Position numbers and translations under genes: made by a program. A DNA stretch of 64,000 nucleotides from NCBI RefSeq assembly GCF_900176425.1, contig NZ_FWXS01000001.1, forward strand, positions 310,001 to 374,000, given 5' to 3'. The DNA is from Moheibacter sediminis. GTDB lineage: Bacteria; Bacteroidota; Bacteroidia; Flavobacteriales; Weeksellaceae. The first letter of the stretch is position 1; every line of letters begins with the position of its first letter. Shown here one piece after another: positions 48,096-64,000 of this stretch. The notes beneath the pieces were generated by a model. The model ran no database searches and was not told where the DNA came from. It saw only the letters and a program-made list of their open reading frames with translations.

Positions 48096-48852
48096 AATTT
48101 ATTAATTCATCAACAGTTACAAAGGTAAAATTTCTCTCTTGAAGTTCAGGCAACAACTGTTCCAATATGGTAAAGATGCCGGGCAGATGATCATGAAGAA
48201 GGATGATGCTTCCGGGTTTGGTTTTGGATAGAATTCTCTTGACAATTTTATCAGGATTTTGATTGGAAATTGTGTCGAAAGAACGGATATTCCAGCCAAT
48301 GACTTTGTGTTTCGTTTCATCGATTGCTTTTGCCAGATGCGGCGTAGTCACACCAAATGGCGGACGAAAGAATTGTGGTTTTTGACCTATGATATTTTGA
48401 ATTTTATCATCGGTAGAATTAATTTCATCCAGCCATTTTGATTTATTGTTGAAATCAATTTTGTGGGAATGCGTGAAAGAATGATTGCCAATGATATGTT
48501 GGTTTTCGTAGATTTTTACTAAAATTTCAGGGTATTTCTCGACGTTTCTTCCGATGCAGAAAAAAGTTGCTTGGGCATTATATTTTTCCAGTAATTCTAA
48601 AACTTTTGGTGTGAATTCCGGATGTGGTCCGTCGTCAAAAGTTAAAGCGATTTTATTTACTTCAGGATTTCCTTTTGAAATGGATTTTAGAAAAAAATTC
48701 CATTGAATATTGGATGAAACAATTGAAACGATTAAAACCCAAATAATTCCCGGAACAAAAATGAAACCCCAATTCAAATCATACCAAAAAATCAATCCTA
48801 AAATAATTAGAATTGATGTTAATGTGATATAATTCAGCAATTTGAATTTCAT
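48082..48852 (-). CDS. Polysaccharide deacetylase (NodB, CE4) membrane protein
   Basis: The 256-residue protein has two N-terminal membrane helices (about 5-45) and a CE4 domain: TFDDGPHPEFTPKVL (metal Asp), HSFTHSHKID (His-box), RPPFGVTTPHLA and LLHDHLPG. All conserved residues for divalent-metal-dependent deacetylation are present. The acceptor is unknown; a sugar or amide group in the envelope or in the pigment's anchor is inferred. Start overlaps the ketosynthase stop by 4 nt. Confidence 0.88.
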   Translation of the reverse strand: MKFKLLNYITLTSILIILGLIFWYDLNWGFIFVPGIIWVLIVSIVSSNIQWNFFLKSISKGNPEVNKIALTFDDGPHPEFTPKVLELLEKYNAQATFFCIGRNVEKYPEILVKIYENQHIIGNHSFTHSHKIDFNNKSKWLDEINSTDDKIQNIIGQKPQFFRPPFGVTTPHLAKAIDETKHKVIGWNIRSFDTISNQNPDKIVKRILSKTKPGSIILLHDHLPGIFTILEQLLPELQERNFTFVTVDELINYESV

Positions 48853-49907
48853 CTCTCAAGTAAAATGAGTGAGTGGTTTTTTTCTCTTCGTTGGTTGTAA
48901 ATAAGGATTTTGTTGTAAGCATTTTTATTTTTTCCGTTTAGATTGAGTATTCGTGGAATTTCCTGATGTTTAAATATTTTCAGCGTAACATCCACTGCAA
49001 GCGAGGTTGCCGTATCAAATTCGCCCAAAACATTTTTAAAAATTATCTGTGGAATTTCTGAAAATAATTTTTCTGAAACAGAATTGTAAATTCCATCGTA
49101 TCGGCTGTCAGTATTATTTCCTAAAATAATTGCGTCTAAATCTTCTGATTTTAAATTATTTTCATTTAGAAATTTGGAAATAAATTCTTGGGGATTTTCA
49201 ACTTCATAAACCGTTTTTGTATTGATGATTTTGCCCAGACAATTTGCTCTTTTCTCTCCGGAGGCTACATAAAATCCAGCGCCTTCAGCAATAATTTCTC
49301 CCGGATTTTTATCTTTTAAATTTGTAGGAATTTGAACATTTTCCGTTTTGGTGTAATTAACTTTGCTCCAAAATTTCATAGTTTGTTCGCTTACTTCATC
49401 TAGTCCTCCAATCACTACATTTTCTTTTGGAGATTCATTTAAATATAAGAATCCATCGATAAGTGCAGATTCAAAAGAACTGGAATTATTAGTGTAAGTC
49501 ATGTTATAGCCTTTGCAATTCAGTGCAAGCGCTATGGTTGCGGCGGCCATATTGTGCGTGGATTGGATAAATGGAGTAGGGTTGAGCATTCCACCATCAT
49601 TTTCCCAAAGTGCTTCGACAAATTTTTCGGAATCGCGAAGACAACCTTCTCCGGTTCCCGTAATCACCGCATGTATTTCAGGATTTCCGGCTTGTTGAAT
49701 GGCTTTTTGCGAAGCATAAACTGCCATGCGCATGCTTTTTCCCATACGTCGCAATTGTAATGCGGGAATGAATTCTTTGTAATCCGGGTCGATGGCTTTG
49801 ATTCCGTTTTCATGGTAAGATGAAATTTCATCATAGAAAAAATTTTCTTGAAATGTAGGTTGAATGGAAATCGTGCCCGAACCGTAAATGTAAATTTCTT
49901 TCATCAT
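48849..49907 (-). CDS. Ketosynthase-like protein without catalytic cysteine (chain-length factor type)
   Basis: The 352-residue thiolase-fold protein aligns to FabF-type KSs (THNMAAATIALALNCKGYNM; GGLDEVSEQTMKFWSKV), but where the nucleophilic Cys should be the sequence reads MTYTNNSSSFESAL, and the HGT and second His motifs are missing. This is the pattern of chain-length factors (KS-beta), which form a heterodimer with an active KS. Partners are the active KSs at 50756 or 53330. Likely controls polyene length (compare ApeC in aryl polyene clusters, by analogy). Confidence 0.82.
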   Translation of the reverse strand: MMKEIYIYGSGTISIQPTFQENFFYDEISSYHENGIKAIDPDYKEFIPALQLRRMGKSMRMAVYASQKAIQQAGNPEIHAVITGTGEGCLRDSEKFVEALWENDGGMLNPTPFIQSTHNMAAATIALALNCKGYNMTYTNNSSSFESALIDGFLYLNESPKENVVIGGLDEVSEQTMKFWSKVNYTKTENVQIPTNLKDKNPGEIIAEGAGFYVASGEKRANCLGKIINTKTVYEVENPQEFISKFLNENNLKSEDLDAIILGNNTDSRYDGIYNSVSEKLFSEIPQIIFKNVLGEFDTATSLAVDVTLKIFKHQEIPRILNLNGKNKNAYNKILIYNQRREKNHSLILLER

Positions 49908-49942
49908 TACAAAGTAATTATAATAAAATCAATTTGAAAGAA

Positions 49943-50752
49943 TTATTCTATTTCAACTTCGTATTTATTTATAATTATATTTCCTTTTGAATTCAAAACT
50001 TCAGTTCCGAACTCTATCGAAGAAATGTATAAATCAGATGAAATGTAGTTTTTTTGAATGAGGAAATCGAGTAATTCTTTCAAATTAATTTTCCCTGTTG
50101 TCCGTTTGTCCGTTCGGATGAACGCTATGTAAATCCATTTGGAATTGATTTCCGGTTTTTTCATGATGCCGTACAACATATCATAAGTTCCGAAAGATGT
50201 TCTTATTGTTTCTTTCTTTTTTCCATGCGATTTGAATTTATTGTAGTCTTCCCAAACCATGAGTTCAACGGCAATATTTTCTTTTGCGACAGTGCTTTCC
50301 GAATGTAGCCAAATATCAAATGCGAGGTTATACTTTTTGTCTGTGGCCGTGATTTTAGTATCGAATTCTGCTTTTAGAGTTTTTAATTCATCCAGCTTTT
50401 TGAAATAATTTGGCTGTTTGATTTCACTTTTTAATCCCCAAGCTGAAGTTCCCAACCAAAGTTCCGGATAACCCAATACGCCGTAAGATTTCGAAGGTGC
50501 ATCCCATTCCCAACCGAAAATTCCATCTTTATGGTAAATACATTGGGTGTAATTTCCTGATTTGATTTTGTACACGCCCCACTTGTTATTGATTAAACTG
50601 AAATTTTCAAATTGTTTTGTTGCGCCTGAACAATCTTTGTAATCTGCTTGATTTTTTAATTTTGTAAATTCAGGATTTTCTACTGAAATAATATGCGTGG
50701 TGGAGCAGGAAATTAAGAATGTGAAATTAAAAATGTGGAATAGATATTTCAA
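49943..50752 (-). CDS. Lipoprotein of unknown function inserted in pigment operon
   Basis: The 269-residue product starts MKYLFHIFNFTFLISCSTT, a lipobox signal. The body includes GIFGWEWDAPSKSYGVLGYPELW and LAFDIWLHSESTVAKENIAVELMVW, with regular beta strands and many Trp/Tyr; the second half resembles the Glyco_hydro_12 / concanavalin-like jelly roll (ELMVWEDY, IYIAFIRTD), which would be an endoglucanase-like fold, but I am not sure. It is unlike the fatty-acid enzymes around it and lies between two KS genes with 3 and 35 nt gaps. Confidence 0.7.
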   Translation of the reverse strand: MKYLFHIFNFTFLISCSTTHIISVENPEFTKLKNQADYKDCSGATKQFENFSLINNKWGVYKIKSGNYTQCIYHKDGIFGWEWDAPSKSYGVLGYPELWLGTSAWGLKSEIKQPNYFKKLDELKTLKAEFDTKITATDKKYNLAFDIWLHSESTVAKENIAVELMVWEDYNKFKSHGKKKETIRTSFGTYDMLYGIMKKPEINSKWIYIAFIRTDKRTTGKINLKELLDFLIQKNYISSDLYISSIEFGTEVLNSKGNIIINKYEVEIE

Positions 50753-50755
50753 AAT

Positions 50756-51946
50756 TTAATATTTAGAAAAAATCAAACTGCTGCAATTCCCTCCAAACCC
50801 AAGTGAATTGGAAAGAACGTTTTTGATTTCTTTATGTTTAGTTTCAGTTTGAGGAATGATTCCTAAATCTTCAATTTTATTTTGGAAATTTAAATTAGGA
50901 AATACAGTTTGATTTTTTAAAGCGAACAAAGAAAACACAGCTTCAACCGCTCCCGCTGCAGCCAGCGTATGTCCCGTAAATGCTTTTGTGGAACTGAAAT
51001 CGGGTAATTCTCCAAATATCCTTTGTAAAGATTTTCCTTCGGACAAATCATTATTAGGCGTCGCCGTTCCATGTGCGTTGATGTAGTCAATTTCAGAGGG
51101 ATTTAATCCTGAAATTTTCAATGCTTTTTGAATTGCCAAATAAGCACCTTCACCATCTTCAGAAGAAGCCGTTTGGTGAAAGGCATCGTTCGCATTTCCA
51201 TATCCGGAAAGAAATCCGATTGTTTTTTTATTTTTTGCTAATTCTTCCGATTCAAGCACGATGTAAGCAGCCGCTTCGCCTAAATTTAAACCTTTACGGT
51301 TTTCGTCAAAAGGGGTGCAATGTTCGTCCGAATAAATCATCAAAGACGAAAAACCATTGATGGTAAATGCCGACAAACTATCTGTCCCGCCTGCAATCAC
51401 ACGGTCAAGCAATCCTGCTTTGATCATCCTTGCACCAAGCATAATCGCATTGGCAGCGGAAGAACAAGCGGTGCTAATTGTCGTGATGTAATCTTTGATT
51501 CCGAGAATTTCAGCGATTTGTTCGGCATGAATACCACAATTCTGCGTAGGAATGAATTTTAAATTTTCATCAGATTCTAAAAAGTTGAAATAAAACTTTT
51601 CGGTTGCATCCATTCCGCCGACTGTTGTAGCAGAAATGAATCCGGTTCTGAATCCGTCATTTAAATTTATTCCAGCTGAATTTATGGACTCTTTTGCTGC
51701 TATCAAGCCTAACAAAGTACTTCTCGTAAAGGCTTCGTCAGGATTTAAATTTAATTCTTCATATAATTCTTGATTGGATTTATTAATTTCTCCAACGAGA
51801 ACTTCTTTGTGAATCAATTTATCTTTTTGAGTGTAAAGCCGAATGCCATGTTTGCCGTTGAGAAGCGAATGTTCGTTTTCCTGAACATCTAACCCAATGG
51901 CAGACACAATGCCCATTCCGGTAATGGCAATCGGTTGTTTTTCCAT
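50756..51946 (-). CDS. Beta-ketoacyl-ACP synthase II-type (active KS)
   Basis: A 396-residue FabF-type KS with nucleophile Cys161 in TISTACSSAAN, HGTATPNND and FTGHTLAAAGAVE (both catalytic His). It extends the polyene chain with malonyl-ACP. Its start shares one base with the ACP gene stop. It probably pairs with the cysteine-less protein at 48849. Cytoplasmic. Confidence 0.92.
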   Translation of the reverse strand: MEKQPIAITGMGIVSAIGLDVQENEHSLLNGKHGIRLYTQKDKLIHKEVLVGEINKSNQELYEELNLNPDEAFTRSTLLGLIAAKESINSAGINLNDGFRTGFISATTVGGMDATEKFYFNFLESDENLKFIPTQNCGIHAEQIAEILGIKDYITTISTACSSAANAIMLGARMIKAGLLDRVIAGGTDSLSAFTINGFSSLMIYSDEHCTPFDENRKGLNLGEAAAYIVLESEELAKNKKTIGFLSGYGNANDAFHQTASSEDGEGAYLAIQKALKISGLNPSEIDYINAHGTATPNNDLSEGKSLQRIFGELPDFSSTKAFTGHTLAAAGAVEAVFSLFALKNQTVFPNLNFQNKIEDLGIIPQTETKHKEIKNVLSNSLGFGGNCSSLIFSKY

Positions 51947-52203
51947 TATTTGGTGCGGTTTGCTTCGATGTAATCTGCCATCGTTCGTACAGTTTCAAAT
52001 ATTTTGCGACCTTCTTTCGGGTCGGCTAATTTGATTCCGTAAGTTTTGTCAAGCATTACGATCAATTCCAAAGCGTCGATGGAATCCAATCCCAATCCGT
52101 CTCCAAATAATGGTGTGTTATCTTGTAAATCTTCAACTGAAATATCTTCCAAGTTCAATTGAGAGATGATTTTTTCTTTTAATTCTTGAGTTAATTCGCT
52201 CAT
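51946..52203 (-). CDS. Acyl carrier protein
   Basis: An 85-residue ACP with phosphopantetheine attachment Ser41 in GLGLDSIDALEL. Carries the growing chain of the cluster. 4-nt overlap with the upstream gene and 1-nt overlap with the KS gene, so it is tightly coupled. Distinct from the second ACP at the right edge. Confidence 0.93.
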   Translation of the reverse strand: MSELTQELKEKIISQLNLEDISVEDLQDNTPLFGDGLGLDSIDALELIVMLDKTYGIKLADPKEGRKIFETVRTMADYIEANRTK

Positions 52204-52811
52204 TTTTTTAAATATAAATTGTTTAAATTTTCTTCGTTATGTTCCAAAGCACCTTCTTTACTAACCAAATACAAAAATACATCTGCATCGTTTTCATCAA
52301 TTTCCGCCCAGCCTGCCAAAACCAAATCCGATTTTTTATCATTTAAGTTTTGTTCAGCATAAGGCACAAGAAATTCAGGTGTAAATTTATCAAAAATAAA
52401 AAAAACATTTTCACTCAAAAGTTTATGTCGGATACTCATCTCGCCCAAAGCGATATTGGGCAAAGTATAAACGAAAACCGCAGGGCTCGCTGTGGATTCT
52501 TCACCATAAATGGAAAGTGCATGCTTCTCGTCAGAAATCATACTGGATGAATGATTGGAAAACACCAAAGCCGTTTCCGTTTCGTAAATATTTTCTTTTT
52601 TGGAAATGAATTCTGCCGCTAAAAAAGTGGCTTTGCAAAGCAAATCCATCTTGTGGTATTTTGGATAATTGGCTTCTGATTTTTGATAAATCCTTTTCAG
52701 AAATTCATCTATGGATTCAGAATTATTTCTTTCCAAAATAACTTCATCATCGCAAATAATTTTGTTATTTGTGATCTGGCAGTAGGATTTTATGTACGTT
52801 TTTGTAATCAT
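52200..52811 (-). CDS. Half-ketosynthase / thiolase-fold fragment-type protein
   Basis: A 203-residue protein homologous to the N-terminal half of a KS (KKENIYETETALVFSNHSSSM; VYTLPNIALGEMSIRHKLLSEN), without Cys-His-His. Proteins like this, annotated as 3-oxoacyl-ACP synthase, are regular members of flexirubin clusters as I remember. The short length is therefore probably normal, not a truncation; it may be a structural partner of one of the KSs. Sequence before residue 40 has no clear homology. Confidence 0.72.
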   Translation of the reverse strand: MITKTYIKSYCQITNNKIICDDEVILERNNSESIDEFLKRIYQKSEANYPKYHKMDLLCKATFLAAEFISKKENIYETETALVFSNHSSSMISDEKHALSIYGEESTASPAVFVYTLPNIALGEMSIRHKLLSENVFFIFDKFTPEFLVPYAEQNLNDKKSDLVLAGWAEIDENDADVFLYLVSKEGALEHNEENLNNLYLKK

Positions 52812-52815
52812 TTAG

Positions 52816-53313
52816 TTACAGCCACATTCTATTATCATTTTTTTCAATTTCAATTTTAAATTGATTAAATTTTTCATATTTATTTAAAATACTTATAATT
52901 ATAGAATCAAATTTTAAAATATTTTGACCAATAGAATTAACCTTATTTATTTTAGCTAATCCAGAAATGTAAATTGAAACTTCTTCATCAGAATTTAAAA
53001 TTTTTAAATTTCGTTCAGACAAATCAGGGATAATTGCCATACCGTCATTATTTGTAACCTCAATGTCAGTTTTAATAGTATCTAAATGATTATTAAAAAA
53101 AGCATTAATTAATTTCAATTTATCAGTTTCATTAATTTTAATTGTGTCTATCAATTTTGAATCATAACTCTTGACAACATAATTTTTTAAATTGAAGTTA
53201 AAATCTTTGTTTTCGTAAATGACTTCAATTTTTTCAAATTTATTAATTTGGTTTTCTTTATTCGAACAGTTTAAAAAGAAACCACAAATTAAAATCATTA
53301 ATAAATATTTCAT
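52816..53313 (-). CDS. Very AT-rich lipoprotein of unknown function in pigment operon
   Basis: The 165-residue product begins MKYLLMILICGFFLNCSNKEN, lipobox Cys. ATG 53313 is preferred over the GTG at 53370, which would overlap the KS gene and put 19 residues before the signal. The body is rich in Asn, Lys and Ile and contains LIDTIKINETDKLKLINAFF. Base composition is clearly more AT-rich than its neighbours, suggesting a late insertion. No function is recognised. Confidence 0.7.
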   Translation of the reverse strand: MKYLLMILICGFFLNCSNKENQINKFEKIEVIYENKDFNFNLKNYVVKSYDSKLIDTIKINETDKLKLINAFFNNHLDTIKTDIEVTNNDGMAIIPDLSERNLKILNSDEEVSIYISGLAKINKVNSIGQNILKFDSIIISILNKYEKFNQFKIEIEKNDNRMWL

Positions 53314-53329
53314 ACATTCTAATTTGAAA

Positions 53330-54451
53330 TTAAACTTTCTCAAAAACCGTTGCAATATTACTTCCACCAAATCCTGAGGCGGTTTTCAGGAAAGTTTTTA
53401 ATTCTTTTTGTTCAGACTTTTTTATGATGTTGACCGACTGCGTTGTTCCTTGTTTGTCAAATCCAAATGAAGGAATCAATGTGTTGTTTTTCAAAGAATG
53501 AATGCCTAAAATCGTTTCCAACAAACCGCTTGCGCCCAAAGTATGTCCGAAATATCCTTTCAAACTATTGGTTGGAATTTCAGATAAATTGGTACGATGG
53601 AAAGCAATCGCCTCCATTTCATCGTTGTAAATAGTCGCCGTTCCATGCGCAGAAATGTAATCTACTTTTTCAAGTTTTGCTTCATTCATTGCTGACTGGA
53701 TGCTTTTATATAAACCTTCGGCGGTCCTAGAAGGACCGGAAATATGGTTGGCATCGTTATAAGTTCCGCTTCCTAAAATTTTTACTGAAGAATTTTCTGC
53801 TGATTTTGTTAGGTAAACTGCAGCGACAGCTTCGCCTAAATTGATGCCGTTTCGATCTTTGTCAAATGGTTTACAAATGGAATCGCTGATCGCCTGAAAT
53901 GATTCAAATCCGGATAAAATGAATTTTGAAACTTCGTCTGCACCGATGACAATTGCTCTTTCGTAGGTGTCATTTTGTAATTGTCTTCTTGCGATTTCAA
54001 TTGCCAAAGAACCTGAAATGCAAGCGTTGGAAACAATTAAAATTTTATTTTTTAATTTGAAATAATGTTCAATCTGACTTGTAAGAGAAGTTAAATAAGT
54101 TCTTTGTTTATCAAATTTAGAATCTGGATTTTGTAAATGGGAAATATTTCCTTTGGTCGTGGAAAGAACAATCAAGGTTTTTTCATCGAGCGGAATTTCA
54201 TTTTGCTGAATTAAATTCTGAATAGAAAGAATGATTAATTGTTCTAATCTTGTAAAATATTTAGCGTTTTTGATGTCATCCAAATTAATCAATTCACCTG
54301 AAATAATTCCTGCAAAAAATGGATTTTGAGAGAAATTATTATGATGTTGTTTAATTCCTGAAATTCCATTTTTAATTTGTTCAAAATTCAATTCAGAACC
54401 AACTCCCAAAGGAGAAATAATAAAATCTCCGGAAATAAAAACGTCGGTCAT
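53330..54451 (-). CDS. Beta-ketoacyl-ACP synthase (active KS)
   Basis: The 373-residue KS has nucleophile Cys144 in VSNACISGSLA, HGTATIYNDEME and GYFGHTLGASGLLE. Shorter than the other KS and lacking its Nterminal insert. Likely a second elongation enzyme for the polyene or the resorcinol alkyl arm (compare ApeO/ApeR in aryl-polyene clusters). It overlaps the thioesterase stop by 4 nt. Confidence 0.9.
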   Translation of the reverse strand: MTDVFISGDFIISPLGVGSELNFEQIKNGISGIKQHHNNFSQNPFFAGIISGELINLDDIKNAKYFTRLEQLIILSIQNLIQQNEIPLDEKTLIVLSTTKGNISHLQNPDSKFDKQRTYLTSLTSQIEHYFKLKNKILIVSNACISGSLAIEIARRQLQNDTYERAIVIGADEVSKFILSGFESFQAISDSICKPFDKDRNGINLGEAVAAVYLTKSAENSSVKILGSGTYNDANHISGPSRTAEGLYKSIQSAMNEAKLEKVDYISAHGTATIYNDEMEAIAFHRTNLSEIPTNSLKGYFGHTLGASGLLETILGIHSLKNNTLIPSFGFDKQGTTQSVNIIKKSEQKELKTFLKTASGFGGSNIATVFEKV

Positions 54452-54855
54452 AAAAAGTTGTATTTACGTTTCCATTCTTCAAAAAATGGCGGATTTGACA
54501 AAAATAATTCTCCCTTGAGATCCGTAAAAACTTGAACGGTTTCACCGGTTGCGATGAGCGTTTCTCCAATAAATATTTTGTAAGTGAAATGTAATTTTGC
54601 GGCAATATTATTTACAAAAATCGTTTCAATGGTAGCCCAATCGCCGTGACGCAACGGCGATTTGTAATCTACGGTACATTTGACAATCGGAGCGAAAAGA
54701 TTTGCATTTTGAATATCTTTGTAGGAAATTCCGAATTCCTCACCAAATGCTTCGCGTCCGTCTTCCAAATAAGTCACATAATGCCCGTGCCAGACGATTC
54801 CCAAAGGGTCAGTTTCATTGAATCGAACTCTGAATTTTGAAGTGTGAGTGAGCAT
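54448..54855 (-). CDS. 4-hydroxybenzoyl-CoA-type thioesterase
   Basis: A 135-residue hotdog thioesterase of the YbgC/4HBT type: RFNETDPLGIVWHGHYVTYLEDGREAF contains the active-site Asp (D in ETDPLGIVWHGHY) and the conserved HGHY. Probably releases or proofreads acyl-ACP during aryl-polyene synthesis. The stop overlaps the start of the next KS gene by 4 nt and the start overlaps the permease stop by 1 nt. Confidence 0.9.
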   Translation of the reverse strand: MLTHTSKFRVRFNETDPLGIVWHGHYVTYLEDGREAFGEEFGISYKDIQNANLFAPIVKCTVDYKSPLRHGDWATIETIFVNNIAAKLHFTYKIFIGETLIATGETVQVFTDLKGELFLSNPPFFEEWKRKYNFL

Positions 54856-56147
54856 TAAATCAAATTATTTCTTTTGTTAATCCATAGTGACAAAATGAAA
54901 GTTGCCACGAAAAACAAAAATAGTGAGATTAATTCGATTGAAATGTCCATTAAACTTCCATTTCGCAAAATGATATCATAAAATGCAGTAATTCCCCAAT
55001 TCATCGGCGAAAAAACCGCAACTTTCTGCATGATTGCCGGCATCAGATAAACCGGAACCCAAATTCCGCCGATTGCTGAAATGATAATTGTGAAGATTGC
55101 GCCAAAAGGCGCACTTTGTTCCTGTGTTTTCATTAGAGTTCCGATTAAAATTCCTAAACCTATTGCCGCAAATGATGAAAAAATCACAATAATTGTCATA
55201 GGAAATAATTGTGCGCCAGGTTTGAATGGAATCAATCCTAAACATGGAAATAAAAATCTCGCAATCAAGAGCATTAATGCAAATTGAATCAGGCAAATAA
55301 TCATATAAGTAATGATTTTTCCTGAAATAATAGTTGCATAAGAAACCGGACTTGTACGAATTCTAATGAGCGTGCCCAGATTTTTTTCTTTCACAATATT
55401 AATACCCAAAGGAACTACAATGAAGAAAATTCCAAAGAGAATCCATGCAGGAACGTTGTGCTGAACAGTGTTGGGCGTAATGCCGTCTTCACCTTTCTGC
55501 GCAATGATTTCGTCGAATTGAATGGCATTTTCGGTCATGATGTTTCCCTCGGTTTCGATGCCCATTTGTTCTTCAAAAACTGTGTAAATTCTTTTGGACT
55601 CAACTTTTGACATCATTTTTTCGATGTCATTTTTGACTGAATTCCTGAAAGTTTCGCCTGCGGCGGGATCGAAGAAAATTTTGATTTTTGAGATTTCTTT
55701 CGGTCTTTCGGTTAAAGAATTTATTTCACTTGAATCGATTTCTTCCATTGAAAATTCAGCCAGAATTTTTTCCACATTAGTATTAATTCTTGACTCCAAA
55801 GCATCAGAAAGATTTTCAGGGATGACCAACGCAATCTGGTATTTGCCGTCGCTTACCAGTTTTTGAGCGGTTGATTCATTTATTTTTTGGTTGTTCCAAT
55901 TCTGAATTAATTTCAGAGAAGGTGTTTCAGAGATATTTTTTTCAATGGTTTCTCCAAATTCGCCGCCATCATTATTTACAACCACAATCGGCATGACCAT
56001 ATCATTTGCATCCTTGAAAGTGCTTTGTTGAATCAAAGTAATGGTAATCAATAAAATAGAAGGCATGATAAAGAGAATGCCCAAACCACCCCAATCGCGT
56101 ACAAGCAAAAGAATTTCTTTCTTGATAGAAGCTAATAATTTATGCAT
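54855..56147 (-). CDS. ABC-2 type transporter permease
   Basis: The 430-residue protein has one N-terminal helix, a large extracytoplasmic region (about 45-230) and a C-terminal five-helix ABC-2 module (WILFGIFFIVVPLGINIVKE, GKIITYMIICLIQFALMLLI, FSSFAAIGLGILIGTLMK, IISAIGGIWVPVYLMP). Pairs with the ATPase at 56140 (8-nt overlap). Of the type found in flexirubin clusters; exports the pigment or an intermediate across the inner membrane by inference. Confidence 0.9.
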   Translation of the reverse strand: MHKLLASIKKEILLLVRDWGGLGILFIMPSILLITITLIQQSTFKDANDMVMPIVVVNNDGGEFGETIEKNISETPSLKLIQNWNNQKINESTAQKLVSDGKYQIALVIPENLSDALESRINTNVEKILAEFSMEEIDSSEINSLTERPKEISKIKIFFDPAAGETFRNSVKNDIEKMMSKVESKRIYTVFEEQMGIETEGNIMTENAIQFDEIIAQKGEDGITPNTVQHNVPAWILFGIFFIVVPLGINIVKEKNLGTLIRIRTSPVSYATIISGKIITYMIICLIQFALMLLIARFLFPCLGLIPFKPGAQLFPMTIIVIFSSFAAIGLGILIGTLMKTQEQSAPFGAIFTIIISAIGGIWVPVYLMPAIMQKVAVFSPMNWGITAFYDIILRNGSLMDISIELISLFLFFVATFILSLWINKRNNLI

Positions 56148-56889
56148 CGTTTCGAACTTGGTTACCGGTTAATTCCAAAAATACATCTTCCAAATTTTGA
56201 GCGTCACTTACTGATTGGATCAATTCATCAGGCGTTCCTTCTTTCAAAATTTGTCCTTGATCAATGATGGTAATCCGCGTGCAGAAATCCTGGGCTTCGC
56301 TCAAATGATGTGAAGTATAAACAATCGTGGTTCCGTTGTCATTGAGTTTTTTGAGGATATTCATAATGACTTCTTTGGATTGAATGTCAACTCCAACCGT
56401 TGGTTCATCTAAAAATAAAATTTCAGGATTATGCAGGATTCCGGTCAATAAATTAATTCTACGTTTCATTCCTCCGGAAAAATCTTTGATGGCTTTATTT
56501 TTATAATCCAGAAGCCCAACCTGCTCCAAACCATTTTCAACTCTCTGTTTCAAGTCATTTCCATGTAAATTGTACAAGCTTCCAAAATAATTCAAATTTT
56601 CTCCAGCCGTCAAAGTTGGATAAAGTGCATATTCCTGAGGGACAACGCCAATTTTTTTCAAAATCTGGGTGCGTTTGTTTTTGAAATTTAATTCATTTAA
56701 AAAAACTTCGCCCGAAGTAGGCTTCAAAAGCCCGCACATCATAGAAATCAAAGTGGTTTTACCTGCTCCGTTTGGACCCAGCAAACCAAAAATTTCACCT
56801 TGACTAATGGTTATGTTTAAATCTTTTCCGGCAAAGGTTTTTTGACCATCATAAGATTTGCTCAGATTTTGCGTGCGAATGGCTTCCAT
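56140..56889 (-). CDS. ABC transporter ATP-binding protein
   Basis: A 249-residue ABC ATPase: Walker A GPNGAGKTTL, Q-loop VVPQEYALYP, signature FSGGMKRR, Walker B ILFLDEPTVGVD, switch His in YTSHH. Pairs with the ABC-2 permease downstream. The 278-nt gap to the next upstream gene contains a Fic-domain gene fragment. Confidence 0.93.
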   Translation of the reverse strand: MEAIRTQNLSKSYDGQKTFAGKDLNITISQGEIFGLLGPNGAGKTTLISMMCGLLKPTSGEVFLNELNFKNKRTQILKKIGVVPQEYALYPTLTAGENLNYFGSLYNLHGNDLKQRVENGLEQVGLLDYKNKAIKDFSGGMKRRINLLTGILHNPEILFLDEPTVGVDIQSKEVIMNILKKLNDNGTTIVYTSHHLSEAQDFCTRITIIDQGQILKEGTPDELIQSVSDAQNLEDVFLELTGNQVRNDA

Positions 56890-57167: not shown

Positions 57168-58163
57168 TTATATGTTTTTTTTCAATTTCTTAAAGAATTC
57201 TTTTTCTCTTTCAGCTAAAGAATAAAGCTGATTTGATAATTGTTCATAAACATTTTCCTGACCGCTGCGATTTTTGTAAACGCGTGAAATATTTAATGCA
57301 AAATCACGCCATTCATCACCAATTTTTGTCATCTCTTCTGAACGAACTTTTAATTCAGGATTGTTTAAAATTCTGGAAGATTCTTCTAAAAATGCAGCAT
57401 AAATAAATCGAAATCCTCCACCGCCAGTTCCGATTTCCTCTTGCATTCTAATCAGTTGGCCCAAGTAGTGATTGGTTTTTTTAACACCGATTTTCTTTGG
57501 CCAATTTTTTATATTTTTCGCCACCCATTTCATTGCATTTACGCCAACAATTGGAACGGGCGCAAGCATGTCGTTACAGGTTTTTTTAATTCCTTTTTTG
57601 ATTGCATTTTCAAAATCATATTGCGTCGGAATCTTTTCTAAATAATACAGATGTCCTTTCGGCGCCAATGCACCTTTTGCAAAACGAACTTTTTCCAATT
57701 CCTTATCGGTCAAAGTTGTGGTCGCTTCCATAACCGGGTCACTGATGAGGTAATTGCCATTTTCTTTTCCAAAAACAACCAAATTATGTGCATTGAAATG
57801 AAAGCGGTATTCGTCGGGAAAATAAGTCAAATTGTAAACTCCGACTTGCAATCCAACGGGAATTCCTTGTTTTAATTTTTGATCCAAAACTTTTTGAGCT
57901 TCTTGAGTAGACGAGAATTTTTTATGAATGACTTTGATTCCCAATTGCTTTGCAAATCTTCTGAAAATAAATCCCGGCATCGGGCGATAACTGAACCCCG
58001 GAGCGAAATTTACTTTCAAAAAAGGTAAATAAACAAAAAACAATCCGGCACCAATTCCGAAAACCAGGGGCTCGGAAACTTTTACACCATTGTGGTTCAT
58101 GAGATTGGAAATCACGCCATTTTCACAATGGGCAGATTGCTGGTGTTGAAAATCGATTTGCAT
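57168..58163 (-). CDS. BtrH-like acyltransferase (BtrH N-terminal / DUF4872)
   Basis: The 331-residue protein has the BtrH-type papain-like domain: candidate Cys nucleophile in AHCENGVISNLM, His in FHFNAHNLVVFG and Asp in LISDPVMEAT, then a helical C-terminal domain of the DUF4872 type. In butirosin biosynthesis BtrH moves an acyl group from an ACP to the aminoglycoside. Here an ACP-to-hydroxyl transfer is a natural parallel: the ester bond between the aryl polyene acid and the dialkylresorcinol in flexirubin. This is inference. Its start shares a base with the upstream gene stop. Confidence 0.8.
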   Translation of the reverse strand: MQIDFQHQQSAHCENGVISNLMNHNGVKVSEPLVFGIGAGLFFVYLPFLKVNFAPGFSYRPMPGFIFRRFAKQLGIKVIHKKFSSTQEAQKVLDQKLKQGIPVGLQVGVYNLTYFPDEYRFHFNAHNLVVFGKENGNYLISDPVMEATTTLTDKELEKVRFAKGALAPKGHLYYLEKIPTQYDFENAIKKGIKKTCNDMLAPVPIVGVNAMKWVAKNIKNWPKKIGVKKTNHYLGQLIRMQEEIGTGGGGFRFIYAAFLEESSRILNNPELKVRSEEMTKIGDEWRDFALNISRVYKNRSGQENVYEQLSNQLYSLAEREKEFFKKLKKNI

Positions 58164-58567
58164 TAATTGGGTTTAAATTTTTTTAATTCTTCAATAGAAA
58201 TTTCAAAGACATCGGCATATTTCTTCAAAGTTTTATCCGATAATTTCTGAAATCTTTTAGGGCTAAAATGTCTTTTCACAAACCAACGATGAATGCCTGC
58301 ATAGCTTGCCAAAATCTGTAAATCCATTCGATGAAGTTCCATGAAATAAGCAATCGGGCTGAGTTTTCCTTCCGAAATTTCCTTTTTGGTTTGATTGACT
58401 CTTTCTTCTATCAACTGCATGGATTCGTCCAAAGCCGAAGCTTTTACATCCCAACCCGAACTTTGAACAGTTGTATAATTCCCATTTTCATCAACGGCAT
58501 AACAAAGCTCATGTATGTTTTTTTTGGCGAGGCCACTGTTGTCCTGCGGAACTTGTTCTTTTTTCAT
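58163..58567 (-). CDS. Small conserved protein of pigment cluster, unknown
   Basis: The 134-residue soluble protein has a middle LSPIAYFMELHRMDLQILASYAGIHRWFVKRHF segment with alternating helices and a final LSDKTLKKYADVFEISIEELKKF that looks like the C-terminal helix-turn-helix of XRE-type proteins (LAxxAGI, ADxFxISxEEL). It may therefore bind DNA or simply be a helical adaptor. It is directly coupled to the BtrH-like gene. No annotation is known to me. Confidence 0.7.
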   Translation of the reverse strand: MKKEQVPQDNSGLAKKNIHELCYAVDENGNYTTVQSSGWDVKASALDESMQLIEERVNQTKKEISEGKLSPIAYFMELHRMDLQILASYAGIHRWFVKRHFSPKRFQKLSDKTLKKYADVFEISIEELKKFKPN

Positions 58568-58584: not shown

Positions 58585-59040
58585 TTACAAATTGGTTGTT
58601 TGCAGAATCATTTTCATTTCTGCCTCAAACGCAATTTTTTCATTGATAGTCGTTTGCGCTTTGACATTGCAAATTTTCAAATTTTCTGAATTAAAAACAA
58701 GTTCTGTTTCTGTGGTTGTATTTAATTTTTCTCTTAACTGGGGAAGGAATTGAATTTTCATACTTGAGATATGGCTGATGAAGCCCACAGAATTTGTTTT
58801 TTCATCTAATAATTTGTCATTTGATTCATTCAAGAAAAAATTCAAAAACACAAAACTTGTCTGCGCCGAATTTTCCAATAAACCCAGTTCTGAAAAAGAA
58901 TTTCCAGTAACAAATATAGAATCAGATTTTACAATATATGAAGTCATCGAAATCAAAGCATCAACCAAAATCACTTCATCCACACATAAAATCGGTGCGC
59001 GGTGCGGAATTAATTTTTCGATTGACTGATATTTTTCCAT
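58585..59040 (-). CDS. ApeP-like hotdog dehydratase
   Basis: The 151-residue hotdog protein begins MEKYQSIEKLIPHRAPIL and carries SELGLLENSAQTSFV in the catalytic helix position, which matches the ApeP-like family of 3-hydroxyacyl-ACP dehydratases. The start is ATG 59040, overlapping the stop of the preceding KSIII gene in TGATG. The active-site His is not at the FabZ position, so its activity is not certain. Confidence 0.78.
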   Translation of the reverse strand: MEKYQSIEKLIPHRAPILCVDEVILVDALISMTSYIVKSDSIFVTGNSFSELGLLENSAQTSFVFLNFFLNESNDKLLDEKTNSVGFISHISSMKIQFLPQLREKLNTTTETELVFNSENLKICNVKAQTTINEKIAFEAEMKMILQTTNL

Positions 59041-60182
59041 CAACAAACTGTCAAAACTGCGCAAGAATAAGCGAAACGTCCACTTTCAGGAATGCATAAC
59101 AAAATTTTCTGATCTTTTTTCAATTTTCCCGAATTCATCAATTCTTCAGTTGCTATGAAAATGGAAGCAGCTCCGATGTTTCCAACTTCAGATAAATTAT
59201 AATACCATTTTTCCACTGGAAAATCCAATCCGACATTGGCAAATTCTTCTCTCAATCCGTCTTTAAAATAATTGGAAGAAATATGAGCCAATACATAATC
59301 CATATCATTTGGATCTAAATTATGTTTGTCAAACGAAGCTCTGAGCGACTGCGCGCCTTTTTTCAGAATATGTTCATCGAGCAAACGCGTATCTTGTTTC
59401 AAAGCAAAAATGGATTGATTTAACCATTCGTCAGCTGAATATTCAGCCCAGGATTTCAAACTTCCGTCTTCTTGTTTTTCTGCGCCGGAATACATACAAG
59501 CTTCAATTTCATGTGCATACGAATAAAAATCGATGAATTCAATTCTTAAATTTATACTGTTTTCCCGTGGTTTATTTTGCAATAAAAATGCGCCTGCGCC
59601 GTCGGAAAGCATCCAACGGAGAAATTCTCTTTTGAACGCAACAATCGGTTTTTCTTCCAATAATTTTAAATTTTCAACTTCATGGTTGAATTTATCAGCC
59701 GTCATCCAGCTTGAAAATCTTTCTGAACCCACTGCAACTGCATTTTCTACTGCGCCCGCTTTTACCGAAAGAAAAGCGTAATTCAAAGCATTCATTCCCG
59801 CATTGCACAATCCCATCGAAGTATTAACTTCTATTGAATTCTTTGTTTTCAATTCACCATGCACCATGGAAGCATGAGAGGGTTGAATCTGATCAGCTGA
59901 AGTTGTACCACACGAAAGCAGCTGTAAATCATTTTTAGAAAAATTTTCATCAAATAAGCCTTCGACTGCTTTTGCGGTAATTTCAGCATTTTTATGTGTT
60001 GGATTGCTGTTCTTGTCTAAAGCATAATAACGGGTTTTAATTCCGTTATTCCTTAAAATCAATGCTTTGGCTTTTGATGGTTTTCCATTTACCAATCCTA
60101 AGTATTCCTCCATTTCATCGTTTTGTACCGGTTCATTTGGAAGGTAGGTCGAGGATTTGGTGATATATACTTCATTCATCAT
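59040..60182 (-). CDS. darB: KSIII-type beta-ketoacyl synthase, DarB-like
   Basis: The 380-residue KSIII has Cys126 in TSMGLCNAGMNAL, His in LAHISSNYF and Asn in SEVGNIGAAS. In dialkylresorcinol synthesis DarB condenses two beta-ketoacyl thioesters into a cyclohexanedione that DarA aromatises. DarA follows 15 nt upstream in transcription, so this KS is the best DarB candidate. A close paralogue lies at 61632 (LRWMLSDGAGA shared), so which one is DarB cannot be settled from sequence alone. Confidence 0.82.
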   Translation of the reverse strand: MMNEVYITKSSTYLPNEPVQNDEMEEYLGLVNGKPSKAKALILRNNGIKTRYYALDKNSNPTHKNAEITAKAVEGLFDENFSKNDLQLLSCGTTSADQIQPSHASMVHGELKTKNSIEVNTSMGLCNAGMNALNYAFLSVKAGAVENAVAVGSERFSSWMTADKFNHEVENLKLLEEKPIVAFKREFLRWMLSDGAGAFLLQNKPRENSINLRIEFIDFYSYAHEIEACMYSGAEKQEDGSLKSWAEYSADEWLNQSIFALKQDTRLLDEHILKKGAQSLRASFDKHNLDPNDMDYVLAHISSNYFKDGLREEFANVGLDFPVEKWYYNLSEVGNIGAASIFIATEELMNSGKLKKDQKILLCIPESGRFAYSCAVLTVC

Positions 60183-60197
60183 TTTATATAGCTTAGT

Positions 60198-61103
60198 TTA
60201 AATTCCTTGAAAATATTTGATATCTCTTTGTCTTTTCCACCAAAAAATAGGTGTAGTCAGAATAAATAATATTAAAACAATCGGCGAAACCACCCAAATG
60301 GCAGCCATCAAATAGAACTTATAAATACCGAGCCAAAATTTCCTTTTGTGCGGATTTTTGCTAATTATTTTTGAAAAAATTGTAAAAAGACGATTTCCGA
60401 CACGTTCCACTTTTACTAAAAACGGACGGATTTCTACCGCTCCATTCTCAACTAATCCTTTCTGCATTCCTTCGTAATTTCCTTTTTGTGAATAAGGCAA
60501 AATGATGTTTCCATATTTAAAGGAATTCTCAATTTCTGAATCAGAAACGCCTGCCTTAGGCCAAGGTTTCGGAGAAACTTTATTTCCGGTTTGCAGCCAA
60601 TTTAAAATTGTAATTACACTTGTGTAATTGTCGTGACGGTCAACCAATGCGATGTTTCCGACTAATTTTGCATTCAAATTATTGAAATGAACTTTTAATT
60701 TTTCTTGCGATAGCATCCACATATTTCGAGTTCCCGAAACAGTGATAATTGGTTTTCCGCCAATTAATTGGGGAGCATATTCACTTTTCAAAAAAGATAC
60801 AATTGGAATCGACGGCGTCAAAAACCAAACCTGATAACCGAAAACAATTAAATCATAATCTTTGCCTAGAATTTCATCTGAAGGTTTTTCAATCTCAACC
60901 GGAATTTGAAGGTAAGATTCCGGAAATGTATCGAAAAAAACATCCTTTGGCCAAGGAAAAGGAAAATCTTTTTTGGGTTTTATTTCATAGTAAGTTACCG
61001 TAAATTCTTCTTGATTTTCAAGAAAAGGTTTTGTGAGATTTCTTACGATTTCTTCCAATTGACCTGTTTGGGAATAATACGTCACAAGAATATTTTTTGC
61101 CAT
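60198..61103 (-). CDS. darA: Dialkylresorcinol-forming enzyme DarA (flavodoxin-like aromatase)
   Basis: The 301-residue protein has an N-terminal flavodoxin-like fold (KNILVTYYSQTGQLEEIV with the FMN-loop SQTGQ; DLIVFGYQVWFLTPSIPI), then an extended C-terminal domain and a membrane segment (about 270-290). This is the DarA layout of dialkylresorcinol clusters, where it oxidises/aromatises the cyclohexanedione to the resorcinol. The start ATG 61103 (MAKNILVTYYSQ) is preferred over the ATG at 61118, since a TATTTTTG -7 box at 61124-61131 would place the transcript start at about 61117. Confidence 0.88.
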   Translation of the reverse strand: MAKNILVTYYSQTGQLEEIVRNLTKPFLENQEEFTVTYYEIKPKKDFPFPWPKDVFFDTFPESYLQIPVEIEKPSDEILGKDYDLIVFGYQVWFLTPSIPIVSFLKSEYAPQLIGGKPIITVSGTRNMWMLSQEKLKVHFNNLNAKLVGNIALVDRHDNYTSVITILNWLQTGNKVSPKPWPKAGVSDSEIENSFKYGNIILPYSQKGNYEGMQKGLVENGAVEIRPFLVKVERVGNRLFTIFSKIISKNPHKRKFWLGIYKFYLMAAIWVVSPIVLILFILTTPIFWWKRQRDIKYFQGI

Positions 61104-61123
61104 TTGTCGATTCAGCATTTATA

Positions 61124-61191: not shown

Positions 61192-61635
61192 TTATTCGCT
61201 GTCTTTAGCAATTATCGTGCGCATTTCCCCCGATGCAATAAGTTTTTCTCCCAAATAAACTTCACCGCTTACCATCGTTACGCCCAATAATTGATTTAAA
61301 ACAATAACTTTTGTTCGGATTTCCTGATTGGCTTTTGGCAATTCAAAAATATCGATATTTTTGATGGAACCAATGTAGCCAACCGGGGCAGGGAGATTTT
61401 GCAAGTAATAATAATAACCTTGGTAAAGTGCAATTGTCTGAGCGAAATGTTCAATAATTCCTGATTCTGAAAGTTGTCCCAAATTATTTAACAAAACATG
61501 ATCTTCAGGAATCGTAAATCCGGAAAGGATTTCATTTTCAGAATGCGTGTAGATTTTGTCCACCAAAACAAACGGAGGTCTTTGTGGGATTAACTTTAGT
61601 ATTTCTTCAGCTGAATCTATAATGGGTTCGCTCAT
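61192..61635 (-). CDS. Hotdog dehydratase (3-hydroxyacyl-ACP dehydratase-like)
   Basis: The 147-residue hotdog protein has ILKLIPQRPPFVLVDKI near the start and GIIEHFAQTIALYQGY in the catalytic helix region, similar to ApeP-like dehydratases and the 58585 paralogue. Start overlaps the KSIII stop by 4 nt (ATGA). The third dehydratase of the cluster, likely for the alkyl/polyene intermediates. Confidence 0.82.
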   Translation of the reverse strand: MSEPIIDSAEEILKLIPQRPPFVLVDKIYTHSENEILSGFTIPEDHVLLNNLGQLSESGIIEHFAQTIALYQGYYYYLQNLPAPVGYIGSIKNIDIFELPKANQEIRTKVIVLNQLLGVTMVSGEVYLGEKLIASGEMRTIIAKDSE

Positions 61636-62771
61636 GCAACTTCTAATAAACCGTAAACATAAGAAAATCTCCCGCTTTCAGGAACTGATAAGAGGATTTT
61701 TTCTCCTTTTTTAAGTTTGCCGGAATAAAAAAGTTGCTCTAATTGCAGATAAATCGATGCGGAACCGATATTTCCAAAGGTTTCCAAGTTGACAAACCAT
61801 TTCTCCAACGGAATATTAATTCCTTCTGAAATAAACGCCTCATTCAATCTGTCATGAAAATAATAAGATGAAATGTGTGGAAGAAAATAATCGATTTCTT
61901 CAGGTTTTACACTATTTTCATTCAATATATGCTGAATGCTTTCCGCACCTTTTTTGATAATATGAGCATCTAATAATTTTATGTCTTGTTTAATGGAAAA
62001 AATGGAATCCGTCAGCCATTCTTCAGGTTTGGAATCGCTCCAAGAAATCAGATTTCCGTTTTCATCTTTGGTCGCACCTGCATACATACAGGTTTCAAGT
62101 TCATTTGCGTATGAAATTCCTTTAATCCAATTAATTTTTAAAGAAATTCCTTCAGCATTCGGTTCATCGCTGAGCAACATCGCTCCGGCACCGTCTGAAA
62201 GCATCCATCTCAAAAAATCTTTGTCAAAAGCGATGATTGGATTTTGTTCCAATTCGATTAATTTTTCTGCTTCATTGTTATATTTATCGGCTCTTAACCA
62301 TGATGAAACTCTTTCTGATCCTGTGCTGATCGCATTTTTTGCATTCCCGGCAGCAACGGTCATGAAAGCATATTTCAAAGCATTCATTCCTGAAGTACAA
62401 ATTCCAATTGCAGAATTGATTTCAATCGGTTTATTTTGCCACAAACCGTGAACCATGCTCGCATGAGAAGGAAGCAACTGGTCAGGAGTGGAAGTTCCAC
62501 ATGACAAAACATCAACATCGTTTTTTGAAATTTTTCCCAATTCCAAAACTTTATTGATGGCTTCAACCGTTAAGTCTGTATTATTATGTGTTGGGTTTCC
62601 GTTTTCATCGATTGCATAATAACGCGATTTGATTTTATTGTTTCTGAGAACAATGGCTTTAGCCCGCGATGCATTTCCATTTACAAAACCTAAAACCTGC
62701 TCCATTTCGTCATTGCTAACGGCTTGATTTGGAAGGAATTTGGAAACGGCTTTGATGTAAACTTCTTGCAT
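61632..62771 (-). CDS. KSIII-type beta-ketoacyl synthase, second paralogue
   Basis: The 379-residue KSIII has Cys125 in AIGICTSGMNALKYAF, His in FLPHISSYYF and Asn in TFGNIGSAS. It is closely related to the DarB candidate at 59040 but with diverged pocket residues. It could supply the 3-oxoacyl chain for the resorcinol arm or initiate the polyene, or be the real DarB. First gene after a 113-nt gap with a promoter-like sequence. Confidence 0.85.
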   Translation of the reverse strand: MQEVYIKAVSKFLPNQAVSNDEMEQVLGFVNGNASRAKAIVLRNNKIKSRYYAIDENGNPTHNNTDLTVEAINKVLELGKISKNDVDVLSCGTSTPDQLLPSHASMVHGLWQNKPIEINSAIGICTSGMNALKYAFMTVAAGNAKNAISTGSERVSSWLRADKYNNEAEKLIELEQNPIIAFDKDFLRWMLSDGAGAMLLSDEPNAEGISLKINWIKGISYANELETCMYAGATKDENGNLISWSDSKPEEWLTDSIFSIKQDIKLLDAHIIKKGAESIQHILNENSVKPEEIDYFLPHISSYYFHDRLNEAFISEGINIPLEKWFVNLETFGNIGSASIYLQLEQLFYSGKLKKGEKILLSVPESGRFSYVYGLLEVA

Positions 62772-62884: not shown

Positions 62885-63754
62885 TTAAGATTTATTCCAA
62901 AAATCGTAATAATTAAACCATTGAAGCGGATATTTCTCCAGAATTTTCTCAATAGATTTTGTGTAAGCTTCCAAAAGTGAATTGGCATCGCGATTTGTAA
63001 ATTCGGCTTTTCGTGCATACAAATGGTAATGACGGTTTCTCTCGCGCATCACATAAACGAATAAGACTGGCGTTCTCAATCGCGAACTTATGAGAAAAGT
63101 CCCAGCAGGAAATTTAGCCTTTTCACCTAAAAATTCCGCTTCGAGTGTTTTTGTATTTGGGAAAAATCTGTCGCCTGTAAAACAAATCATTTGTTTTTCT
63201 TCGATGATTTTGTTGATTTCAAAAATATGTGACAAATCTTCGCTGACAATGATGAATTCGACTTTTGATTTAGCCATTACATTATCTAGAAGTGATTTGA
63301 TGGCGGCACGTTCTTCATCAGTTGTCACAAGATGAATTTTTTTGTCAAATTCTCCCATGAAATGCTGTGCTACTTCGAAATTTCCGACGTGTGCACTGAT
63401 CAAAATTCCCGCAGAATCATCTTTAGCTAATTGGTGAATGTTTTCAATGCCGTCAAATTCGTAGGTAAATTTATTTTCTAAACCTGCTGCAATGGCGACT
63501 TTGTCAACGATGGTTTGGCCGAAAACGAAATTATTTCTATAAGTATTGATTAAACTTTGAAAAACATTTTGCTTGTGTTTTTCTCGGAAATACTTGTAAA
63601 TAATTCGGGTCTGTTTTTGATTAAAAATAAAATAATAAAATGACACAAACGCCAGCAAAGCGTATGCTGCGTTGAGTCCTGCATTTTTAATGAGAAAGAT
63701 AAATATTTTGTAACCCGTTACGGTACCTTTTGATTTGCCTTCCCACTCAGCCAT
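62885..63754 (-). CDS. LpxL/HtrB-like lysophospholipid acyltransferase
   Basis: The 289-residue membrane-associated protein has an N-terminal hydrophobic helix (AAYALLAFVSFYYFIF) and the family motif HVGNFE (HX4E) in SAHVGNFEVAQHFMGE, then FTGDRFFP and FPAGTFLISSRLRTPVLFVYV. This family is regularly found in flexirubin/APE clusters, where it may add an acyl or the pigment to a lipid anchor. It follows the ACP gene after 17 nt, so the ACP is the likely acyl donor. Confidence 0.88.
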   Translation of the reverse strand: MAEWEGKSKGTVTGYKIFIFLIKNAGLNAAYALLAFVSFYYFIFNQKQTRIIYKYFREKHKQNVFQSLINTYRNNFVFGQTIVDKVAIAAGLENKFTYEFDGIENIHQLAKDDSAGILISAHVGNFEVAQHFMGEFDKKIHLVTTDEERAAIKSLLDNVMAKSKVEFIIVSEDLSHIFEINKIIEEKQMICFTGDRFFPNTKTLEAEFLGEKAKFPAGTFLISSRLRTPVLFVYVMRERNRHYHLYARKAEFTNRDANSLLEAYTKSIEKILEKYPLQWFNYYDFWNKS

Positions 63755-63771
63755 TTATAAAATTGGATTTT

Positions 63772-64000
63772 TTATGCTAATGCGTGAAATTTCTGATCAA
63801 CCACATCATACAAATCATTGAATGTATGAATGTTGGCGAAATCTTTTCCTTCCAGTTTTACGCCGAAATTAGATTCGATAATTACTACCAAATCAACGTA
63901 ATCCAAACTGTCCAGATCTAAAGATTGTTTTAGGTTGGCGTTGGGTTGGATAACATTTGCTTCTACTTCAAATTCTTCAACCAAAAAATTATTAATTGTT
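63772..64000 (-). CDS. Acyl carrier protein, second copy, 5' end cut by window edge
   Basis: The frame is open from the right edge (reading INNFLVEEFEVEANV on the minus strand) and ends at 63772, giving an ACP with phosphopantetheine Ser in LDLDSLDYVDLV and the end DVVDQKFHALA. The start is outside the window; the TTG inside it at 63984 is not the start since the frame continues before it. Second ACP of the cluster, next to the acyltransferase. Confidence 0.9.
   Translation of the reverse strand, partial: TINNFLVEEFEVEANVIQPNANLKQSLDLDSLDYVDLVVIIESNFGVKLEGKDFANIHTFNDLYDVVDQKFHALA

Follow-up and report, generated by a model that had tools for sequence, protein, structure and literature searches.

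Our comparative analysis of a 64,000-nucleotide stretch of the Moheibacter sediminis genome (contig NZ_FWXS01000001.1; hereafter the window) points to darH as the best current candidate for the gene whose product joins the two halves of flexirubin, an aryl polyene and a dialkylresorcinol. Judging from its sequence, modelled structure and distribution, we consider it fairly probable that DarH is a flexirubin ester synthase, which would pass the polyene from an acyl carrier protein (ACP) via its residue Cys13 to a hydroxyl group of the resorcinol. Flexirubins are a long-used chemotaxonomic marker. For the step that joins their halves, the literature within our reach holds no demonstrated enzyme, and now that a gene and a particular cysteine can be named, the question is open to direct testing in a laboratory strain.

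The darH open reading frame spans positions 57168-58163 of the window and encodes 331 amino acids on the minus strand; the plus-strand reading of the same interval contains 12 stops. The initial annotation had placed a BtrH-like acyltransferase here, which the family searches confirmed, with the strand now given as minus. The Pfam domains BtrH_N (residues 12-143, 6.8e-51, 172.4 bits) and DUF4872 (residues 154-327, 6.1e-61, 205.6 bits) were both found above their gathering scores, and the NCBIfam model NF053550 (cut-off 300 bits) matched DarH at 514.5 bits, covering profile positions 1-325 of 325. This was the single NF053550 match in the M. sediminis genome. Since NF053550 bears the name 'BtrH-related acyltransferase DarH', the family had already been named, as an acyltransferase, by NCBI; DarH belongs to it over the full length, and the family record speaks of an acyltransferase with no donor, acceptor or bond stated. 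By family and predicted fold, DarH is thus a papain-like acyl-transfer enzyme, in which Cys13, His126 and Asp142 form the likely catalytic triad and the DUF4872 part carries a glycine-rich GTGGGGFR motif.

The expectation that Cys, His and Asp would stand at their proper places was borne out by the alignments. Residues H126 and D142 were invariant in all 113 DarH rows (112 distinct sequences) and C13 in all 112 rows reaching that position, as counted after removal of L001 and L020, which duplicate the protein encoded in the window. The three residues were likewise kept in 11/11 rows when DarH was aligned with distant relatives, namely five BtrH_N proteins of haloarchaea, Streptomyces and Acinetobacter and three Bacteroidota paralogs, BtrH itself being left out. 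The GTGG motif of DUF4872 was conserved throughout this alignment except in Haloferax, which retains the following FR. The AlphaFold2 model of DarH, built on a 49-row alignment, reached a pLDDT of 90.2 and a pTM of 0.89. A Foldseek search of the PDB with this model returned CtaG, AziU2-U3 and CcbD among the top 19 rows (E 1.7e-9 to 6e-7), and VIA-align matched the model to CtaG with Z 23.5 over 294 residues, to AziU3/U2 with Z 22.8 and to CcbD with Z 21.8. These whole-length matches (Z 21.6-23.5 over 293-305 residues) were followed by single-domain cysteine peptidases, the next-best chains, at 12.2 over 147 residues. A sequence-only search for solved relatives of DarH gave none that was significant, and identity to the solved fold relatives is about 13%, so that the link rests on fold.

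Among these relatives, AziU3/U2 makes an aziridine, and BtrH of the butirosin pathway acylates an amine of an aminoglycoside, whereas the acceptor of DarH would be a phenol. None of the three enzymes BtrH, CcbD and CtaG is known to make an ester. In the available part of one report, BtrH is an ACP:aminoglycoside acyltransferase that contains a papain-like domain, and BtrH_N is assigned to the papain-like superfamily (PMC10318531). DarH and BtrH share the BtrH_N domain, and Cys, His and Asp are conserved among the BtrH_N relatives that were aligned. CcbD of celesticetin biosynthesis is described, in the available text, as moving a carrier-bound acyl group to its own Cys and from there to an amine, yielding an amide, by means of a Cys-His-Glu triad and a ping-pong mechanism in which fatty acyl groups are also accepted (PMC12945683). 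CtaG of closthioamide biosynthesis has been proposed to transfer 4-hydroxybenzoyl from one carrier protein to tri-beta-alanine on another, according to the accessible portion of the report (PMC6772006). The CtaG variants named in PDB titles (C11A, H128A, D144N) imply a His-Asp spacing of 16, the same as that of H126 and D142 in DarH. CcbD and CtaG, the former amide-forming and the latter proposed to be so, match DarH over its whole length. The residues typical of papain-like carrier-protein-dependent acyltransferases such as BtrH, CcbD and CtaG (Cys-His-Asp/Glu) are therefore present in DarH by alignment, and the two-domain fold of these enzymes is present in its model. Both features fit a carrier-protein-dependent acyltransferase, and what would be new here is most likely a new type of bond on a known fold and mechanism.

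The genes surrounding darH, all on the minus strand, include those assigned to both halves of the proposed product. From high to low coordinates, the cluster begins with an ACP (PP-binding, 63772-63999, the second in the window and continuing past its end), an LpxL-like acyltransferase (Pfam Lip_A_acyltrans, 62885-63754), darB copy 2 (NF053539, 615.3 bits, 61632-62771), a FabZ-like dehydratase (61192-61635), putative darA (60198-61118), darB copy 1 (NF053539, 625.1 bits, 59040-60182), encoding the resorcinol ketosynthase/cyclase, a further FabZ-like dehydratase (58585-59064), darG (58163-58567) and darH. Beyond darH it continues with an ABC transporter ATPase (56140-56889), an ABC-2 type permease (54855-56147), a 4HBT-type thioesterase (54448-54855) and a block of polyene ketosynthases, a chain-length-factor-like protein (PF13723) and their partners (48849-54451), which encloses an ACP that might be the donor carrier (51946-52203). 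A polysaccharide deacetylase family protein (48082-48852), LolB2 and LolA2 (NF053540 and NF053544, 46874-48095), which are likely to serve outer-membrane transport of the pigment, and a GT2 + DUF2062 glycosyltransferase (44196-45383), which served us as a polyene-cluster marker, complete the order, with LolA2 preceding LolB2. DarH thus lies, as the initial annotation had it, between dar genes (darG, darB and putative darA upstream) and the exporter (ATPase and permease downstream). DarA is a resorcinol aromatase according to the accessible part of PMC3949708; the frame at 60198-61118 was assigned to it from its place beside darB and from weak flavodoxin matches, the family-profile search having given no match of this frame to a DarA family model. 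Past the window, the same contig carries genes for a ketosynthase, a ketoreductase and an aromatic amino acid lyase; the opposite strand there encodes an AAT-family acyltransferase (L033:5871-7544), an AMP-binding ligase and a halogenase-like FAD protein.

Several further features of the window were recorded. It holds two copies of darB, each with its own FabZ-like dehydratase, and one darB is found in each of the other 31 hybrid neighbourhoods compared below. Two frames judged lipoprotein-like by eye (49943-50752 and 52816-53370, minus strand) lie amid the polyene synthase genes, and neither had a match in those 31 neighbourhoods. On the plus strand, two distinct aconitase genes stand side by side (35665-38436 and 38497-40767), one of the Aconitase_B_N + Aconitase_2_N type and the other of the Aconitase/Aconitase_C type.

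If DarH joins the two halves, it should occur where both are encoded and be absent from plain aryl-polyene clusters, a check named in the initial annotation, and this is the pattern that emerged from a whole-genome survey of Bacteroidota, comprising a first draw of 392 genomes across the phylum and a second of 386 genomes of the class. In the first draw, DarH was found above the cut-off in 33 genomes and DarB in 32, all of them within the 33; in the remaining one (G017) DarB scored 518.7 bits against a cut-off of 550. PF13723, used as a chain-length-factor marker, occurred in 38 of the 392 genomes, that is, in the 33 with DarH, in G118, G238 and G373, and weakly in G079 and G237; matches below the Pfam cut-off were those of G079, G237 and G352, and G079 and G237 were left out of the polyene genomes. 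In the second draw PF13723 was found in 79 of 386 genomes, 60 of them new. DarH was present in 51 of these 60 and a full DarB in 52, with 44 above the cut-off, seven at 517-548 bits and one (G462) split at contig ends. The GT2-DUF2062 marker was detected in 56 of the 60, including 51 of the 52 with darB; it was missing at the threshold in G439, which has DarH and darB.

Taken together, the two draws contain 85 genomes with a full DarB, a count from which a partial DarB (G219) and fused DarB-like proteins of 616-675 amino acids were left out. DarH is present in 84 of them and in none of eight genomes with polyene markers and no darA-darB pair (G118, G373, G238, G550, G564, G622, G676 and G687). 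A Fisher test of 84/1 against 0/8 gives 9e-11, a value that ignores phylogeny among related genomes and is based on only eight polyene-only ones. The sole miss, G506, has darB and no DarH in an assembly of 360 contigs; its gene order equals that of its genus-mate G405 up to a contig end, beyond which G405 continues with permease, ATPase, darH and darG. As the contig of G506 ends before the place that DarH holds in G405, the absence is probably an assembly gap. Two of the polyene-only assignments need a qualification. G238, which we placed among the polyene-only genomes, carries a solo DarB-like gene (498.9 bits) that has no neighbouring DarA-like match, and G676 is a weak case because its polyene contig is just 7.8 kb long and ABC-like genes lie on another contig; it was left out of the neighbourhood comparison. 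In some genomes PF13723 also matches a dar-operon protein that resembles a chain-length factor, and it is therefore no pure polyene marker. For this reason, polyene clusters were checked against their neighbouring genes, against a polyene-type ketosynthase (KS) if the neighbourhood showed none of them, or against the GT2-DUF2062 marker. In G017 the opened PF13723 locus was no polyene cluster, and a 62%-identical polyene-type KS was found on another contig; G397 (L144) has DarH and DarB with a KS match at FabF level only.

Comparison of 32 hybrid neighbourhoods with seven polyene-only ones (G118, G373, G238, G550, G564, G622 and G687) revealed which genes accompany the resorcinol half. DarA, DarB, DarG and DarH were each present in 32/32 hybrid and 0/7 polyene-only neighbourhoods. 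The ABC ATPase, the permease and a small protein (45393-45857, minus strand) were each found in 31/32 and 0/7, one FabZ-like dehydratase beside darB (that at 58585-59064) in 26/32 and 0/7, and an outer-membrane-like protein in 18/32 and 0/7. Occurrence alone does not single out DarH, since DarG, the small protein and the ABC pair are distributed in the same way. The thioesterase, found in both cluster types, the LpxL-like acyltransferase and the AMP-ligase occurred in all seven polyene-only neighbourhoods and the AAT-family acyltransferase in six of them. The small protein, which has a signal-peptide-like start (by eye) and no Pfam match, is a second hybrid-specific factor; it stands immediately before darA in 65 of the best 80 of 566 confirmed loci.

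DarH is closely coupled to DarG (NF053545), a protein of 134 amino acids with a C-terminal HTH_26 match, and in the window the TAA stop of darG and the start of darH share one base (TAATG). DarG lies immediately upstream of DarH in 32/32 hybrid neighbourhoods and in G017, and directly before it in 78 of the best 80 of the 566 confirmed loci; the two exceptions lie at a contig edge or have no match. In 13 of the 84 genomes (12 of the 51 second-draw DarH genomes plus G017), DarH and DarB were located on different contigs or more than 15 kb apart, where in fragmented assemblies different contigs do not prove distance. In G405, the separated DarH and DarB are both well inside their contigs. In G017, darG-darH stands with no other cluster gene within 20 kb, and two further contigs hold darA-darB and the polyene-type KS, respectively; at locus L161 the pair is alone in 21 kb, with DarB elsewhere in that genome, and in G602 DarH sits at a contig end. 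The DarG-DarH pair can thus leave the dar operon, and the retention of DarH apart from darB in the 13 genomes indicates that co-retention does not reflect operon hitch-hiking only.

Evidence from resorcinol biosynthesis places DarH late in the pathway. Heterologous darA and darB of Chitinophaga pinensis are reported to yield the resorcinol (available text of PMC3992019), and since the two suffice, DarH should act later. Resorcinol proteins of Azoarcus likewise make resorcinol in E. coli, and free resorcinol was undetected in Azoarcus extracts, according to the accessible sections of PMC3949708. According to the available part of a further study, bacteria that carry the resorcinol genes esterify their polyenes with the resorcinol, and two strains possessing darA and darB are said there, from its own data or by citation, to test positive for flexirubin; no enzyme is named in it for the polyene-resorcinol esters (PMC5932025). 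The contribution of DarH should accordingly follow the making of both halves, either in joining them or in handling the joined product, and the predicted fold points to joining. What the analysis shows is the gene, the predicted fold of its product, the conserved residues and the joint occurrence with both halves. In the model that we infer from this, which extends to an ACP as donor, the resorcinol as acceptor, an ester as product, the compartment and the order of transport, DarH would be a probably cytosolic papain-fold enzyme working in two steps. Cys13 would first take over the completed aryl-polyene acyl chain, borne until then on the phosphopantetheine arm of an ACP from the cluster; His126, held by Asp142, would then activate a phenolic hydroxyl of the dialkylresorcinol made by DarA and DarB, which would attack the Cys13 thioester and release the ester. 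The ABC transporter together with LolA2 and LolB2 would subsequently carry the pigment to the outer membrane.

The view that no other enzyme for the ester step is evident in the cluster did not survive the analysis, which found LpxL-like and AAT-family acyltransferases and an AMP-ligase, the ester step having also been assigned in proposal to the ligase-like FlxW in 2014 (Schoner 2014, available text of PMC3992019). The LpxL-like protein is an acyltransferase by family, and its gene is present in 27/32 hybrid neighbourhoods; if it made the ester, DarH would have another task in hybrid producers. We regard this as unlikely, as the gene is also present in 7/7 polyene-only neighbourhoods, where the darA-darB pair was not found. 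In E. coli, whose control genome gave no DarB above the cut-off, deletion of either acyltransferase, ApeD or ApeJ, is reported in the accessible part of PMC8253772 to leave likely polyene acids unattached to the lipid anchor, an outcome that suggests lipid anchoring, a task that the LpxL-like protein may share. It seems equally improbable that the ester is made by the AAT-family protein, despite its AAT domain (1.6e-23), or by FlxW, given that the former recurs in 6/7 and the AMP-ligase in 7/7 polyene-only neighbourhoods; the lone AMP-ligase seen may be a starter ligase of the FlxY type and not FlxW.

Two other readings keep DarH within hybrid producers and give it different work. DarH might act on the resorcinol side, for instance by handing acyl chains of the dar-operon ACP over to DarB or by attaching a fatty acid to the resorcinol, as ACP, KS and chain-length-factor-like genes follow the dar-operon ABC genes in many loci. 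Matches to these three anywhere in the fetched flank numbered 67, 59 and 48 of the best 80 of 566 loci, some of them from polyene clusters. We give this reading little credence, because darA and darB alone already yield resorcinol in the heterologous host (available text of PMC3992019) and the solo darB regions opened on two Bacteroidales plasmids show no DarH. DarH and DarG might instead form a unit for regulation, protection or quality control, such as one that hydrolyses misloaded ACP; the HTH match of DarG, the base it shares with DarH, and the BtrH-type genes that directly follow a TetR, GyrI-like or MerR gene in Acinetobacter and on two Streptomyces plasmids would agree with such a role. 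The restriction of DarH to genomes with both halves, its retention apart from darB and the acyl-transfer chemistry of its fold make this, too, a doubtful explanation, and ester formation by DarH stays the preferred one.

Outside the Bacteroidota, the proteobacterial evidence comes from the table of one paper. Arcuflavin of Azoarcus is a polyene-resorcinol ester as predicted from mass spectra, and the available part of the same report gives the dar order as darA, darB, darD, darE (a BtrH-like peptidase), ABC ATPase, a toxin-antitoxin-like pair, permease, ACP, KS and darK (PMC3949708). The toxin-antitoxin-like pair aside, this order, described there for another phylum, is that of many Bacteroidota loci, and Azoarcus darE, by gene order and description a probable counterpart, holds the same place in a hybrid producer as DarH. 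A BtrH-like gene had thus been listed earlier in a dar cluster, with no role given in the accessible text of PMC3949708, where the name darH denotes a different gene with a PilT domain. Our literature search, to which subscription papers were outside reach, found no paper that assigns the flexirubin ester step to DarH or shows it.

BtrH relatives found by the plasmid search occur mostly in Acinetobacter, haloarchaea and actinobacteria. In five annotated plasmid regions, neither a dar gene beside the BtrH-type gene nor an ACP near it was annotated, and a regulator precedes the gene in 3/5; a sixth region that was opened bears no annotation. In Acinetobacter and Streptomyces (L049, L201 and L203), each BtrH-type gene comes immediately after a TetR, GyrI-like or MerR gene, with a slight overlap, and regulator-BtrH coupling like that of darG-darH may be common. 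Three opened plasmid regions with darB-like genes had no DarH annotated; in two of them, from Phocaeicola and Prevotella (L046 and L047), a TetR regulator immediately precedes a solo darB-like gene, and neither darA nor DarH is annotated in the stretch that was opened. DarH-like paralogs at L037-L040 (G269, G210, G265 and G158; 151-186 bits) were set aside, having no other match to the 26 cluster proteins of the window nearby. DarB-like ketosynthases of 616-675 amino acids were noted at L041:637-2535 and L043:8422-10272, with similar frames in G254, G407 and G415; the two that were scanned, those of L041 and L043, carry a fused haem-oxygenase-like PF14518 domain, and on the Pseudoalteromonas plasmid L048 a DarB-like gene lies beside an 'iron-containing redox enzyme'. 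Such fused or adjacent genes possibly belong to a different resorcinol-type pathway that does without DarA.

A wider reading, which we hold to be about evenly balanced, is that DarH couples all polyene-resorcinol hybrids, those of Bacteroidota as well as the betaproteobacterial arcuflavin type, that it would be the first BtrH-fold carrier-protein-dependent cysteine acyltransferase to make a phenol ester and not an amide, and that DarG-DarH would form a transferable module whose gain turns a producer of aryl polyene and resorcinol into a flexirubin producer. If DarH is the ester synthase, ester formation would be added to a fold known for amides, a tool for joining polyenes and phenols would become available, and darH would serve as a genomic marker separating flexirubin producers from plain aryl-polyene producers.
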